From a virus, in the IMG/VR virus record IMGVR_UViG_3300032284_002041, positions 1 to 23,428 of that record: a stretch of 23,428 bases of DNA. One strand, given 5' to 3'. Position 1 is the first letter of the stretch. Every line of letters starts with the position of its first letter. The position numbers were made by a program, and so were the translations under genes. Below the pieces are notes generated by a model. It did not search any database. It was not told the origin of the DNA and saw only the letters and a program-made list of their open reading frames with translations. This document shows, piece by piece, positions 1-23,428 of this stretch.

Positions 1-1410
1 AACAGTACCATCTTGTTGGAATCCTTGTGATTGGTCATCATACATTCCTAATGCATTATTAACATCAATGCCGGATGTTCCCAAGCCAATGCGTAATGGC
101 GGTGCGTGGTCTAAATCAGCATCTAACCTTACACCAAACATACTTAAACCAGAGTTGGTGTATGTTGACATTTCAGCAGTAGTTATAGCTGATTGAACAT
201 ATCCAACTGTACCAGTTAATATTGTATCTACACCATTAGAGCCACTAAAAATTGATTGGTTAGGTCCGTAATGACCATAACTTGTATCAAATTGAATTGC
301 TGCGGTTGAACCATCACCACCTTGAGCACCGGTAGCACCAGTGTAACCAGTTGCACCATCAGCACCTTGTGTGCCTTGTGAACCATCATAACCTTGTGCG
401 CCATCTAAACCAGTTACACCAATGTAACCTTGAGCACCATCGTTGCCTTGAGTGCCATCAGCACCAATATCACCTTGTGTTCCTTGAGAACCTGTAGCAC
501 CTGGAACTCCAGTGGCACCAGTAAGACCTACTGTACCTTGTTCACCATCAGAACCGGTAGCACCTCGTAAACCATTAGAACCTTGTGTGCCACGTGAACC
601 ATTAATACCTTGAGTACCATCGTTACCGGTAACACCAGAAGCACCTTGAACTCCAGGAGCACCATCGATGTTGATAGTTACTGTACCACTACCTGTACCT
701 ACAGATTTTGTAGATGTATAATTTATTACTCCTGTACCAGAATCATATGAATTAACTGTTGCTAACGCATAATTGTTTGCATCGAGAGCGATAACAATTT
801 CCATACCAGCAGTAAATGCATATGAATAATCGCCTGTGATTGGATCTGTGTTTAGTTGTAGTGTATCGGTACCAATAAATGTGATATCAATACCAGTAGA
901 AGTAGCAACAAATCTATTGCCATATGAACCTGTAGCACCAATTTCACCTGTAGGGCCGGATGTTCCTGTGTAACCAATTTCTCCATCAGGACCTGTTGCA
1001 CCAGTTTCGCCTGTAGGTCCTTGGTCACCAGTTTGACCTAATACACCTTGTTCACCAGTTTGTCCTTGAGCACCATCTTGGCCAGTTTGGCCTATGACAC
1101 CTTGTTCACCTTGAGCACCTGAAGCACCATCTGTACCTACATCACCAGTTACTCCGGAAGCACCGGTAAATCCTGTTGCACCAATAATACCGGTAGCACC
1201 TGTATCACCTGTAATACCTTGTGAACCGTCAATACCTGTGGCACCTTGATCGCCCGTATAACCTTGAGCGCCTGTGGCACCGTAAGGACTTTGGCCTGGA
1301 CCTGAAGCGCCTACCCAATTTCCTTGCGTATCAATAACCGGGAAACCAGAGGCACCTACTGCTAAGCCGTTGCCGGCATTAAACTTTTTATTATTTGTTG
1401 TTAGTGACAC
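1..1410 (-). CDS. Collagen-like tail fiber protein, C-terminus beyond window
   Basis: I read an uninterrupted frame from a GTG at 1408-1410 to the left edge (470 residues, no stop). A GGGAGA ribosome-binding site 6 nt upstream supports the start. Residues 1-43 are an anchor-like segment (NNKKF, NGLAVG, VIDTQGNWVGA) that closely matches the start of the neighbouring 762-residue fiber. Gly-X-Y repeats run from about 44 to 160, a globular module spans about 161-250 (ending INIDGAPG), more Gly-X-Y repeats follow to about 368, and a non-collagenous region begins STAAIQF and runs off the window. The shaft is richer in GAQ, GDQ, GEQ and GQT triplets than its neighbours, which are dominated by GAT and GAS. 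A role as a host-adsorption fiber is inferred from architecture and context. The gene follows the 762-residue fiber by 27 nt and is probably cotranscribed. What the C-terminal head binds or does cannot be judged. Confidence 0.85.
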   Translation of the reverse strand, partial: MSLTTNNKKFNAGNGLAVGASGFPVIDTQGNWVGASGPGQSPYGATGAQGYTGDQGATGIDGSQGITGDTGATGIIGATGFTGASGVTGDVGTDGASGAQGEQGVIGQTGQDGAQGQTGEQGVLGQTGDQGPTGETGATGPDGEIGYTGTSGPTGEIGATGSYGNRFVATSTGIDITFIGTDTLQLNTDPITGDYSYAFTAGMEIVIALDANNYALATVNSYDSGTGVINYTSTKSVGTGSGTVTINIDGAPGVQGASGVTGNDGTQGINGSRGTQGSNGLRGATGSDGEQGTVGLTGATGVPGATGSQGTQGDIGADGTQGNDGAQGYIGVTGLDGAQGYDGSQGTQGADGATGYTGATGAQGGDGSTAAIQFDTSYGHYGPNQSIFSGSNGVDTILTGTVGYVQSAITTAEMSTYTNSGLSMFGVRLDADLDHAPPLRIGLGTSGIDVNNALGMYDDQSQGFQQDGTV

Positions 1411-1416
1411 TTATAA

Positions 1417-1422
1417 TCTCCC
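1417..1422 (-). promoter_or_regulatory. Shine-Dalgarno site fixing a GTG start
   Basis: On the minus strand this reads GGGAGA, 6 nt before the GTG at 1410. No ATG lies nearby in this frame, and the residues right after the GTG match the N-terminus of the neighbouring fiber, so this site decides the start. Confidence 0.7.
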
Positions 1423-1437
1423 GGATTAATTTTTATA

Positions 1438-3726
1438 TTAAGCTAGTACTGCTTCACGCAAGAAGTCGATTGTAGTATTTGTATTTGTTGGAGTAACTTT
1501 AACATATACAGTACCAGAATTGTAATCAGCAGATACAGTTATCAAACTAGAAGTTGAATACATTGTGGCATATTCAGTTACAGAAGCATCAACGCCATTA
1601 TGTGTAACAATAACTTCTGTTGAATGAACATCGCCGCCGTTTGTAGCTTGAATGATATACTTAGCAGTTCTGTAAACAGTAGCGTCATATGAATCGATTG
1701 TTTGATTTGCAACAGTTGTTGTGAGTGGATCATTACCTGCTGTCAGACCAGTACCAGTTGCACCGGCAAAACCTGTGGCACCTGAAGCACCTTGGATACC
1801 GGTTGCACCTGAAGCACCATCAACACCAGTAGCACCTGTATAACCTGTTGCACCTGTGTAACCAGTTGCACCTGAAGCACCTTGAATACCGGTAGCACCT
1901 GTGTAACCAGTTGCACCAGTAAGTCCTGTTGAACCTGAAGCACCTTGAATACCGGTTGCACCGGAAGCACCTTGAACACCAGTAGCACCAGTATAACCAG
2001 TTGCACCTGTGTAACCTGTGGCACCTTGAACACCTTGTGCGCCATCTAAGTTAACTGTCCATTGTGTGTATTCACCAGAACCAACTGAAGTTGTTTTAGC
2101 AAATACTAATGTTGTACCAGAATAACTTACTACAGTACCTAATTGATAGTTTTCTGGATTAGTGTAAGAAGCAACAACGATTGATTGAGCAGGAGTATAT
2201 GCAAGTCCAGCATCAACCGTTAATGTGATATTTCCTGTTCCACCAATTGTAAAATCTGAATCTGATGTTGTTGCATAAAGGTCGCCATTTGCGCCCGAAG
2301 CACCAACAATACCAGTCGCACCAGTATAACCTGTGGCACCATCAATACCTGTGGCACCCGAAGCACCGTCAATACCAGTAGCACCAGTCAGACCGGTTGC
2401 ACCATCAATACCGGTTGCACCGGAAGCACCATCAGCACCAGTTGCACCGGAAGCACCATCAATACCGGTTGCACCAGTTTCACCAGTAGCACCTGTATAA
2501 CCTGTAGCACCATCAACGCCATTATAACCTGTTGCACCAGTTAGACCGGTTGCGCCATCGATACCTGTAGCGCCTGAAGCACCTTGAATACCAGTAGCAC
2601 CAATTTCACCTTGGGAACCTGTGGCACCACTTGCACCTACAGGACCAGTTGCACCCGTATCGCCTGTATAACCTATGGCACCATCAGCACCAGTTGCACC
2701 GGAAGCACCATCAATACCGGTTGCACCAGTTTCACCAGTAGCACCTTGAACACCAGTTGCACCCGTATAACCAGTTGCACCAGAAGCACCTTGATGGCCT
2801 GTGGCACCCGAAGCGCCTTGGTCACCTTGTGAACCAGTAGCACCAGTAGGACCAGTAGAACCCGAAGCACCTTGAATACCCGTTGCACCTGAGGCACCAT
2901 CGGCACCAGTTGCACCGGAAGCACCTTGAACACCAGTAGCACCAGTATAACCAGTTGCACCAATTAAACCAACTGCACCATCAAGGTTTACTGAAAATCC
3001 GGTGGTTGGAGTTGCATTTGCGTGTGTAATGTCTGTTACAGATAATACCAAAGCACCACTACCTGAATCGTAAGATGTTACCTTAGCATTTAAATAATTT
3101 GTTGCATCAGAAGTTGATGTTACAATAACATCTTGTGCAGGAGTATAAGCAAGTCCTGTGCCAACTGTTAATGATAAAGAACTTCCAATTGTATATGTGT
3201 TTAATGTAAGAGTTGATGTTGTATCTTGTGTTGCATAAAGGTCGCCATTTGCACCGGCAGTACCAGTAGCACCAGTTAAACCGATTGCACCAGTAGAACC
3301 AGTTGCACCCGAAGCACCATCAATACCGGTTGCACCCGTTTCACCAGTAGCACCTGTATAACCTGTAGCACCATCAACGCCAGTAGCACCCGTAACGCCT
3401 GTAGCACCTGTGTAACCTGTTGCACCGTCAGCACCTGTTGCACCACTAGCACCATCAATACCAGTAGCACCGGTTAAACCTGTTGCACCTTTAACACCTG
3501 TGGCACCTGAAGCGCCGTTTATACCTGTTGCACCGGTATAACCAGTTGCACCAGAGGCACCATCAACACCGGTTGCACCGACAGAACCTGTGGCACCTGT
3601 TGCGCCACCTGGAAGTTGAGCACCTATCCAATTACCGTTTTCGTCAATAACATCTACCGGGCCGGTTGCGCCATTGCCTACGGATAGACCGTTTCTTACT
3701 ACAAATTTTGAATTATTGGTTGCCAC
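1438..3726 (-). CDS. Collagen-like tail fiber with two globular knobs
   Basis: 762 residues starting at GTG (3724-3726), with an AAGGAG site 8 nt upstream. Residues 1-40 form a presumed virion-anchor segment ([22 protein letters not shown]). Collagen-like Gly-X-Y repeats, mostly GAT, GAS, GYT and GID, occupy about 41-160, 251-480 and 563-660. Two related globular modules (about 161-250 and 481-562) interrupt the shaft. Each starts with GANGDLYAT, contains LAYTPAQ and ends VNLDGA. The last 102 residues (661-762) form a non-collagen tip with [16 protein letters not shown] and VTEYATMYS, and are homologous to the tip of the 426-residue fiber upstream. There is no S74 chaperone domain. The protein is inferred to be a trimeric adsorption fiber. 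Long near-identical DNA repeats occur within the shaft. The nearest alternative is a whisker-like or accessory fiber. Confidence 0.88.
2426..2746 (-). repeat. 69-bp exact direct repeat in collagen shaft
   Basis: Positions 2426-2494 and 2678-2746 are identical over 69 bp, in the same frame and 252 bp (84 residues) apart, within the Gly-X-Y shaft of the 762-residue fiber. Collagen coding is naturally repetitive, but identity at synonymous positions over this length indicates recent duplication or gene conversion. Confidence 0.8.
2450..3381 (-). repeat. 71-bp near-identical repeat pair flanking the first knob
   Basis: Positions 2450-2520 and 3311-3381 agree at 70 of 71 bases (one A/C difference). 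The pair lies on either side of the first globular module of the 762-residue fiber, 861 bp (287 residues) apart and in frame. Recombination between the copies would remove the knob and keep the reading frame. Confidence 0.75.
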
Positions 3727-3790: not shown

Positions 3791-5071
3791 TTACACTTCA
3801 ATTGTTGTTTTTAAATACTTTAATGTTGTTGAATTATAGATTGGTTGAAATCTTAATTCTACCAATCCTGATCCTGTCCACGATACACGTCCAATCAATA
3901 ATGTTGGATTGCGTGATGTTGTTGATGTTGCATCATAAATGCCGTCTAATGTATTTACAAATGCAGTTGCTAAAGTTATACTAAATGGATTATTTGAGCT
4001 ATCATATACAGTTATTGTTGTACCAACAGGAATGGATAATAGTCCCAAAGCAACAGTAGGATTGTTTGTATAGAATCTAAGATTTGTTACTGTCCATACA
4101 GATACTCCACCAATATTAATATTTGGTGAAGAATAATCGTTTGTTAATGGTGAATAATATGAACTAAAATTACCAAGTGCATCACCAATAGCCCCATATT
4201 CTGTTAGATAAGCATTTGGTTCATCAACTAACAATCTTAATTCTGTTGCTGAGTAATGTAATCCAGAAGTAATTTGCATTTCATATTTTGCACTTCTGTA
4301 TACTGATGTATCAATTGTGTCAAACACAACTTGATTTGTATTTGATGTTGTGTATACGGTTGCGGCTTGTAAAATTCCTGAAGCACCTTGAATACCAGTA
4401 GCACCAGTTTCACCAGTTTCACCGGTTAATCCGGTTGCACCTACACCAGAAGCACCTTGAGTACCGGTGGCACCTGATGCGCCGGTTTGGCCTGTTTGAC
4501 CTGTGGCGCCCGTTAGTCCTGTTTGGCCGGTAGCTCCTTGAACACCTTGAGTTCCTGTTGCTCCTGGTATTGTTGAATCCGCACCTGTAGCACCAGTATG
4601 TCCACTAGCTCCTTGAACGCCAATAGAACCCGTTGCACCAGGTATCGTTGAAGCAGGACCTGTAGCGCCAGTATAACCGGTTGCACCTACACCAGAAGCA
4701 CCTTGAGTACCGGTGGCACCTGATGCGCCTTCGGTGCCTTGTGAGCCAGTGCTGCCGCTTGGACCGGTTATGTTTCCAACATCAATCCATTCAGTACCAC
4801 TCCAAACCCATAAATGTCCTGTGTCATCGGTAATGAAGCCATCACTAATTGCATTAGGATAAGAAGGATCTAATTCAGAAGCTGTTGCTACATGACCAAC
4901 AATTTTAACCGATGTGCCTGCGGGACCTGTAGCACCACTTGCACCCGAAACTCCTGAAATTCCTGAAGCACCAGGAACACCTGAAGCTCCCGTAGCGCCG
5001 GCTCGGCCAATTCCATTTCCGTGTCCATTACCTACTTGTACATTTACTGTACCAATTACTTGACCTGGCAT
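3791..5071 (-). CDS. Collagen-like tail fiber with glycan-binding-like module and elaborated tip
   Basis: 426 residues. The ATG directly abuts the stop of the upstream gene, with a GAGG site 7 nt before it, so translation is probably coupled. Residues 1-23 are a short Gly-rich N-terminus containing VNVQVGNG, and Gly-X-Y triplets follow to about 50. A non-collagen module at about 51-104 ([31 protein letters not shown]) resembles the TG-LWVWDG-W modules common in marine phage fibers. Collagen repeats fill about 105-232, twice interrupted by STIPGATG. The C-terminal tip (233-426) contains [17 protein letters not shown] and LTEYGAIGD and ends [10 protein letters not shown]. It matches the tip of the 762-residue fiber, except for an extra block at roughly 300-390. 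An adsorption fiber role is inferred. The binding target is unknown. Confidence 0.86.
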
Positions 5072-21418: not shown

Positions 21419-23428
21419 TTATTTATCTCCATTTTTGAGAACTATGCTTTCCAATACTTCAATTCTTTTTTGTTGCTCTTTAATAATTTCAATAAAAAAG
21501 CCAGATAATGCATTATAATTAACAGATTTTTTACCTTCTGAATCTGTACCAACAATTTCTGGAATATACTCTTCAACCTCTTGAGCCACAACTCCATATG
21601 ATTTAAGGCCTGTACCTGTCCAAATATACTCAACACCTCTTAAATTTTGAAGCTTTGCAAAAGCACTCTGTATCGTTTCAATGTTTGTTTTATATCTATT
21701 ATCAGATAAAGAATTAAATATAGTTGCAGCTAAAGTGCCTGTAGATGGATTATAGTTTAATTTACTATCAGAAGTATAAATTGCAGATACATTTCCTGTT
21801 GTGACATTTGAAAATAATGGATAAACAGTTTGATTTGTTGATGTATCGTTTGTTAATTTAATAGTCGTTTGATTGGTGGATATTGTTAATTCTTGTGGAT
21901 TAGCAGAATGATTTGTGGTAAGTTGAATTCCTGATCCAGCAATAACATGCAAGGTATCTTCGCCTTGAGCAACCAAACTGGTTTGACCATCCACTTCAAT
22001 GGTTCTAAATGAACTACCCAAACTTACTTTAACTTCTCCACTACCTAAATCATCTACATGAAATCCCGTATCAGTATCAAATAAGAGTGTACTTATATTG
22101 TTGACTTGATTTGTAATTGTTCCGGTTGCACCACCTGTAGCACCACTCACCGAACCAACATTTAAGTTTGTGACGCCAACACCCGTAGCACCAGTAAGTC
22201 CTGTAGCTCCAATACCTGAAGCACCTTGAATGCCGGTAGCACCGGTAGCACCAGTATAACCTGTGGCACCAGAAGCACCTTGTACACCCACATTTGTAAA
22301 CACTTTCCATGTAGTGCCGTCATAAACGGATGTGAGTAGAATTCCACTTATATCAAGAATTAAATCATCAGTAAGACCTTGAATCGTGGATCCGTTACCA
22401 TTGATTGTTAAATTGTTTGTGCTCCAAGCTTGACCACTATCAGCAAAACTTATACTATATCCCAATGAAGGAGATGCGGGTAATGTAATTGTAAATGAAC
22501 CACTGGAAGTATCGGCAGCAATAGCATCTTTGTTACCAGCGGTATAATTTGATGTTTTTACTATCCAATTTTGTAAAATACCGGTAGCACCAACAAAACC
22601 GGTTAAACCAGAAGCACCTTGTATACCCTGAATTCCGGTAGCACCAGTTAAACCGGTTAAACCAGAAGCACCTTGTATACCCTGAATTCCGGTAGCGCCA
22701 GTAAGTCCTGTTGAACCAGAAGCACCTTGAATGCCGGTAGCACCGGTAGCACCAATATAACCTGTGGCACCACTAGCTCCTCGAACCCCGGTGGCACCAG
22801 TAAGTCCTGTTGAACCAGAAGCACCTTGAATGCCGGTAGCACCGGTAGCACCAATATAACCTGTGGCACCACTAGCTCCTGGAACCCCGGTGGCACCAGT
22901 AAGTCCTGTTGAACCAGAAGCACCTTGTATACCCTGAATTCCGGTAGCACCGGTGTAACCTGTGGCGCCTGTTGCACCAGTAAGTCCGCTTGCTCCAAAT
23001 ATTCCTGTAGAACCTGAAGCACCTTGTACACCACTCGATCCTTGTATTCCTTGAACACCGGTAGCTCCTGTAAGTCCTGTAGATCCGCTAGCGCCTTGTA
23101 TGCCTTGAATACCAGTAGCACCTGTAAATCCTGTAGCACCAAAATCACCTTGTATACCTTGAACACCGGTAGCGCCAGTAAGTCCTGTCGAACCACTAGC
23201 GCCTTGTATACCAGTAGCACCTTGAACTCCTTGTGGTCCTTGAATACCTGTTGCGCCAGTAAGTCCTGTCGAACCACTAGCGCCTTGTATACCAGTAGCA
23301 CCTTGAACTCCTTGTGGTCCTTGAATACCTGTTGCGCCAGTTGATCCTGTATATCCTGTTGCACCAATAAAGCCGGTTGCGCCAGTTGATCCTGTATATC
23401 CTGTTGCACCAATAAAGCCGGTTGCGCC
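21419..23428 (-). CDS. Collagen-like fiber with S74 chaperone, N-terminus beyond window
   Basis: 669 residues are visible and the frame is open to the right edge. An internal TTG at 22463-22465 is not the start, because the same frame continues unbroken upstream through a beta domain into collagen repeats. In order: Gly-X-Y shaft (about 22580-23428, GATG/GASG-rich, with tandem DNA repeats), a beta knob (about 22290-22580, with [36 protein letters not shown] and YDGTTWKVF), a short second collagen stretch (about 22160-22290), a beta head, and a C-terminal S74 chaperone starting [10 protein letters not shown] (Ser codon 21704-21706) with [15 protein letters not shown] and a terminal helix [17 protein letters not shown]. 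Family knowledge: the S74 domain trimerises the fiber and self-cleaves at the SD motif. The fiber sits just upstream of gp25, away from the other fiber genes. The missing N-terminus would show how it attaches. Confidence 0.9.
22701..22925 (-). repeat. 99-bp tandem repeat, two full copies plus a partial
   Basis: The units 22701-22799 and 22800-22898 differ at one noticed base, which turns GVRG into GVPG in the protein. A third partial copy runs from 22899 to about 22925. Each unit encodes 33 residues (11 Gly-X-Y triplets), so copy changes keep frame and collagen register. Confidence 0.85.
23172..23333 (-). repeat. 81-bp tandem repeat, two identical copies
   Basis: The units 23172-23252 and 23253-23333 appear identical. 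Each encodes 27 residues (9 Gly-X-Y triplets) of the collagen shaft. Identity at synonymous positions indicates a recent duplication. Confidence 0.85.
23334..23428 (-). repeat. 45-bp tandem repeat at the window edge
   Basis: The units 23334-23378 and 23379-23423 are identical, and the first five bases of a third follow at 23424-23428 where the window ends. Each encodes 15 residues (5 Gly-X-Y triplets). The array may continue beyond the edge. Confidence 0.85.

Follow-up and report, generated by a model that had tools for sequence, protein, structure and literature searches.

Triplet-matched tail-fiber genes suggest heterotrimeric collagens in tailed phages

Two neighboring tail-fiber genes of a T4-like phage, here called A and B, likely encode two chain types of one heterotrimeric collagen, with the composition A2B or AB2. 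Together with tandem collagen genes of other phages, they suggest, with reasonable probability, that tailed phages have heterotrimeric collagens, both A2B or AB2 types with barrel nodes and ABC trios, and that these are the first natural ones outside animals. We arrive at this reading, which is based on sequence, because the number of triplet slots stays equal through sequence saturation, insertions and deletions are shared, and extra domains occur in one gene of a set. Both the A/B pairs and the trios consist of distinct, adjacent paralogous genes. Animal heterotrimers such as type I collagen (a1/a1/a2), C1q (A/B/C) and type IX collagen are likewise encoded by separate paralogous genes with equal triple-helix length; their globular end domains select the chains, and length is matched triplet by triplet. 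To our knowledge, mixed-chain (heterotrimeric) collagens have so far come from animals only, and a literature search returned no report of mixed-chain phage collagen. The likeness to the animal proteins lies in the paralogous genes and the equal triplets; the chains described here are phage tail-fiber genes, have other anchors and tails, and are known from sequence.

The window, i.e., the entire 23,428-nucleotide stretch of viral DNA analyzed (IMG/VR record IMGVR_UViG_3300032284_002041), encodes baseplate wedge proteins upstream, followed by fiber genes. This gene order resembles that of pelagimyophages, in which a host-recognition cluster follows VrlC and collagen repeats have been noted (PMC7029224). 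Fibers A, B and C are encoded on the minus strand. The gene for fiber A (1438..3726) is an open reading frame with a GTG start and 762 codons for amino acids (Pfam Collagen, E 4e-67). It begins with an N-terminal anchor (residues 1-40, 3607..3726), supported by orthologues and resembling that of fiber B. Counting Gly-X-Y triplets, we then find collagen segment 1 with 41 triplets (residues 41-163, 3238..3606), a knob module K1 (residues 164-249, 2980..3237; identified by BLASTP and profile), segment 2 with 78 triplets (residues 250-483, 2278..2979), a second knob K2 (residues 484-561, 2044..2277; profile match, AlphaFold2 pLDDT 96.4 for a barrel model spanning 2044-2286), segment 3 with 33 triplets (residues 562-660, 1747..2043), and a C-terminal domain T (residues 661-762, 1441..1746; AlphaFold2 pLDDT 91.7).

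Fiber B lies downstream, separated from A by 27 bases (1..1410, GTG start), and is cut at the window edge after 470 visible residues. These include collagen segment 1 with 41 triplets (residues 44-166, 913..1281), a K1 knob (residues 167-249, 664..912; BLASTP and profile), and the first part of segment 2 with 40 triplets (residues 250-369, 304..663). The collagen triple helix repeat PF01391 is matched at 222 bits in A and 122 bits in B, against a cut-off of 27.2. The remaining part of B is an inserted globular domain, also cut at the window edge (1..303), that aligns with an insert in fiber B of a related phage, L004; there, the insert is likewise preceded by 40 triplet slots, out of 78 in the whole segment. 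By inspection, the window insert appears SPRY-like, and SPRY (PF00622) is matched in other inserts of fiber B of L004 and L100. Fiber C, the upstream neighbor of A (3791..5071), has short, broken collagen, a weak T-like domain and no K, and does not pair with A and B in length. A further collagen fiber at 21419-23428 lacks its 5' end and has a C-terminal S74 chaperone domain.

The T domain of fiber A is predicted to adopt the fold of the T4 gp9 C-terminal domain (PDB 1qex; Z 14.0, rmsd 1.7, 101 of 102 residues). A and B have homologous T domains, and that of fiber B in L008 matches the PHROG "baseplate wedge tail fiber protein connector". T4 gp9 is a trimer. It is the connector of the long tail fiber and has no collagen, whereas T ends a collagen shaft.

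The initial annotation had proposed a globular module recurring three times within collagen shafts and belonging to no named family, and this is borne out, as regards the family for the libraries searched. The three copies are homologous in BLASTP comparisons (E 3e-12 for the two knobs of A, 3e-7 for K2 of A and K1 of B, and 2e-6 for the two K1 knobs), and each is bounded by uninterrupted Gly-X-Y repeats. K matches no Pfam family and has no dedicated PHROG. Scanning IMG/VR with the three copies identified at least 103 relatives, and a profile iterated from the three copies yields about 160 copies, up to five per protein, spread over 76 loci of IMG/VR and two GenBank entries for a single 735-kb phage; doubtful second hits in the C-terminal domains of L040, L051 and L053 were left out as profile drift. 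Nearly all relatives are flanked on both sides by Gly-X-Y. A tblastn search of phages and plasmids with the profile consensus returned nothing, probably because of low-complexity masking; the same type of search with real K sequences reached the 735-kb phage and two Synechococcus phages, in which K is weakly present after an alanine-rich coiled coil. K also occurs inside collagen of proteins in Bacteroidetes metagenome-assembled genomes (MAGs; L083-L092, L094) and a Woesearchaeota MAG (L093), several of which open with a signal-peptide-like sequence ("IPQGFNYQAVAR..."). K is not limited to phages, and putatively secreted, Bacteroidetes-type collagen-like proteins carry it too. The 735-kb phage encodes a 2816-residue fiber (L001, 4680-13130) composed mostly of Gly-Thr-Ser and Gly-Ser-Ser triplets, with a single K in mid-protein. 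Fibers of L010, L013, L038 and L073 have three to five copies at near-regular spacing (e.g., 348/351/372 collagen residues), and in L009 (3124-6919), L062 (6154-8989) and L032 (4448-6158) a second collagen gene starts with a K-like barrel.

K comprises about 80 residues and is modeled by AlphaFold2 from 65 sequences as a confident six-stranded all-beta barrel (the pLDDT of 96.4 given above). Among proteins of uncultured phages annotated as "Collagen triple helix repeat", Foldseek finds many with this barrel. One of these, from an uncultured member of the Caudovirales (BFVD A0A6J5MWB5), has the same K barrel (E 1.7e-9, TM 0.93, 45% identity); proteins of this type are annotated by the collagen repeat only, with the module left unnamed. 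A small six-stranded beta-barrel, as its authors describe it, forms domain VI of the JBD30 hub (PMC11445458). It resembles K in fold (Z 7.7, rmsd 2.5, 73 aligned residues, 16% identity), among many near-equal matches, but does not lie in collagen. This likeness tells no function, since barrels of F1/V1 ATPases and helicases match the same arrangement; we do not accept kinship of K with the latter, which are general six-stranded barrels only. The K profile has no match among PDB sequences at E below 0.3. The nearest described knob inside phage collagen is that of EPclB. EPclA and EPclB of Escherichia coli prophages are fibers with collagen shafts that form single-gene trimers, and their length differs between strains by multiples of three; in EPclB, the globular module Pf2 (PF03406) separates two collagen domains and is visible as a central globule in electron micrographs (PMC3368898). 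Pf2 is a different family from K: PF03406 matches none of the 65 K modules, nor fibers A and B as wholes.

Scans with the T domain of A and the anchors of A and B retrieved the full-length A and B genes of eight additional phages. Like all comparison sequences, these lie on metagenome contigs with repeats, and genomes within one lineage are not fully independent. Slots were counted in B by convention, skipping inserted globular domains and taking interruptions of three to four residues as one slot. In L104 and L152, where B has no insert, A and B match exactly, both at 41/78/33 slots per segment. The other pairs are L004 (A 41/78/33, B 43/78/33), L008 (A 41/78/33, B 41/76/33), L105 (A 41/78/33, B 39/78/33), L099 (A 43/78/33, B 41/76/33), L100 (A 43/78/33, B 40/76/33) and L103 (A 68/105/33, B 67/105/33); in the window, segment 1 has 41 slots in each gene. 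A/B pairs thus agree within zero to three slots per segment. B totals are one to two slots off when several inserts are present, and segment 1 of A reaches 43 in the two phages whose anchor continues in frame. L103, the only length change seen in the A/B lineage, is a joint one. Compared with other A fibers, A of L103 has exactly 27 more triplets in segments 1 and 2 each, and segment 3 is unchanged. Identity at X and Y positions between A and B is 0.24 in the window, the same as for shuffled triplets (0.24), and mostly near the shuffled level in other pairs, so recent duplication does not explain the equal length.

Within the lineage of the window, no third K-bearing partner with matching segments was identified downstream of B or upstream, where fiber C lies. 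Elsewhere, adjacent K proteins of L009 have 56 and 56 slots after the knob and 70 versus 79 before it, and those of L032 and L062 do not match in length, so pairing by K does not hold everywhere. Fiber B of L008, L099 and L105 has an inserted domain (ADQLTTGN-RGAWD--T-Y---DIV) with the look of a CBM5/12 carbohydrate-binding module; the L008 copy has no Pfam match above threshold.

The initial annotation had also read the shaft as a ruler, with knobs at set distances and the first knob of both fibers ending at Gly250. The first copy in each fiber indeed stops right before Gly250. This is partly a coincidence of residue numbers, since anchor, collagen and knob measure 40, 123 and 86 residues in A and 43, 123 and 83 in B; we therefore rejected Gly250 as an invariant, and the exact common quantity is 41 triplets, or 123 residues of collagen rather than the 117-120 proposed. 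Set distances hold within the lineage of the window and between the two genes, where lengths are locked, but not family-wide: collagen before the first K runs from 0 (L019) through 12 (L051) and 45 (L010) to more than 200 residues (201 in L103). Random anchor-to-knob lengths among homologues were what the annotation itself had set against its ruler, and for the family as a whole such variable lengths are found.

An independent test comes from phages without K, also reached by the anchor search, that have two or three tandem collagen genes, three being the usual number. The genes lie next to one another, in places with a few bases of overlap. All three genes of L178 exceed the cut-off for S74 (PF13884) at the C-terminus, and the other S74 trios were assigned by tail length alone. 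Slots in tandem genes are, for example, 107/107/107, 99/99/99, 166/166/167, 202/202/203, 136/135/137, 170/170/170 and 115/115. A scan with the anchor of this set identified 24 pairs of neighboring genes whose tails measure 125-170 residues; a search of cultured phages returned no match to the anchor. Slots range from 79 to 208 between genomes, and within a genome 79% of pairs are at most two slots apart, versus 8% when permuted. Taking one pair per genome (n = 14 genomes), r is 0.9996 and the mean difference 0.86 triplets versus 46 permuted, and no permutation out of 100,000 did as well. In L212 and L215, two non-adjacent collagen genes about 5 kb apart shift together in length (82/79 and 104/107 slots).

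Length changes are shared within this set. Between the sister phages L177 and L178, whose DNA is 96% identical, each of the three genes shows a single 72-nt indel; the best placements, at slots 86-89, 89-95 and 85-93, overlap or nearly so. Compared with L189, both genes of L193 have 7 more triplets at the collagen start and 14 more in all, the other half of the gain in the second gene being +8 and -1. The rule is broken in one lineage, with slots of 188/187/208 in L179, 182/175/203 in L219 and 188/181 in L221. The third gene of L179 includes an exact repeat (nt ~1350-1692 of the gene) that spans at least 90 bases, with the copies spaced 171 nt apart, and which is missing from the 99% identical gene of L222 (187/187); it may be an assembly error or a very recent duplication and would account for part of the deviation. 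The repeat occurs in L179 only and does not account for the deviation of L219.

We hypothesize that in the A/B fiber the paralogous N-terminal anchors and C-terminal T domains would hold three chains at their ends, and that the Gly-X-Y segments of A and B would wind into one triple helix. Equal triplet slots would be required because the chains share that helix. The K barrels, at two axial positions common to all chains, would form three-barrel nodes between shaft segments. Inserts found only in B (SPRY and others, some of which on inspection look like carbohydrate-binding modules) would protrude from the B chain as loops along the shaft, and are probably receptor-binding. The S74 trios would be ABC heterotrimers from three tandem genes. 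Module homology, equal slot counts and joint changes of length are observed, and the barrel and T folds are models; co-folding of A and B, its stoichiometry, the node role of K and adhesion by the B inserts are inferred.

K is most simply a three-barrel node, given its place at the same slot in both chains, and may serve register, stiffness or binding. It is a serious if somewhat weaker possibility that it is chiefly a ligand-binding or adhesion domain along the shaft. K1 ranks with those parts of fiber A that diverge fastest, T being 82-89% identical between phages; K is found in the collagen-like proteins of Bacteroidetes; and S74 trios hold register over 200 triplets without it, which makes K dispensable for register in general. 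Its nearly invariant residues (D2, Y4, L28, Y30, Q34, Y55, W76, N79), on the other hand, look structural.

The initial annotation had suggested that two fibers are bundled side by side. An association of A and B is supported, and equal segments with joint length changes would fit any association in register, including separate homotrimers lying knob to knob, for which bundling needs equal length. We consider that arrangement unlikely, and one triple helix fits better. The contour length of a homotrimer tracks its residues, but the agreement is one of slots, with two-residue interruptions counted as whole ones (mean difference 0.8 slots versus 2.35 by residues, and in L222 187 and 187 slots versus 187 and 175.7 by residues). 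Inserts in all three chains of a B homotrimer would disturb side-by-side packing more than loops on a shared helix, and three, the usual number of S74 tandem genes, is the number of chains in a triple helix.

Still less probable are independent homotrimers whose length is set from outside, e.g., by the distance from baseplate to cell, each gene keeping its own ruler. Orthologues of A do keep their segment lengths while X/Y identity falls to 58-78%, and segment 3 remains at 33 triplets at about 48%. Yet one distance needs neither equality per segment between knobs nor exact triplet agreement, the total length of gene B varies widely with its inserts, and neighboring collagen genes with longer, other tails match less (40/34/31 and 40/33; few cases, some of them close). 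Recent duplication or gene conversion between neighbors is very improbable. In its favor, the genes are paralogues whose anchors and tails are related, but in the S74 set these ends are only 38-76% identical, collagen X/Y identity is typically about 0.12 versus 0.12 when shuffled, and the extra 72-nt stretches of L177 are unlike each other among the three genes.

If the heterotrimer reading is true, mixed-chain collagen evolved independently in phages, and host-binding domains can vary on one chain while the shaft is held constant by the others. Phages would also supply numerous natural sets of chains, 80-200 triplets long, for the study of chain selection and register in E. coli without hydroxyproline. 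Triplet matching is a simple way to spot partner chains in any genome.
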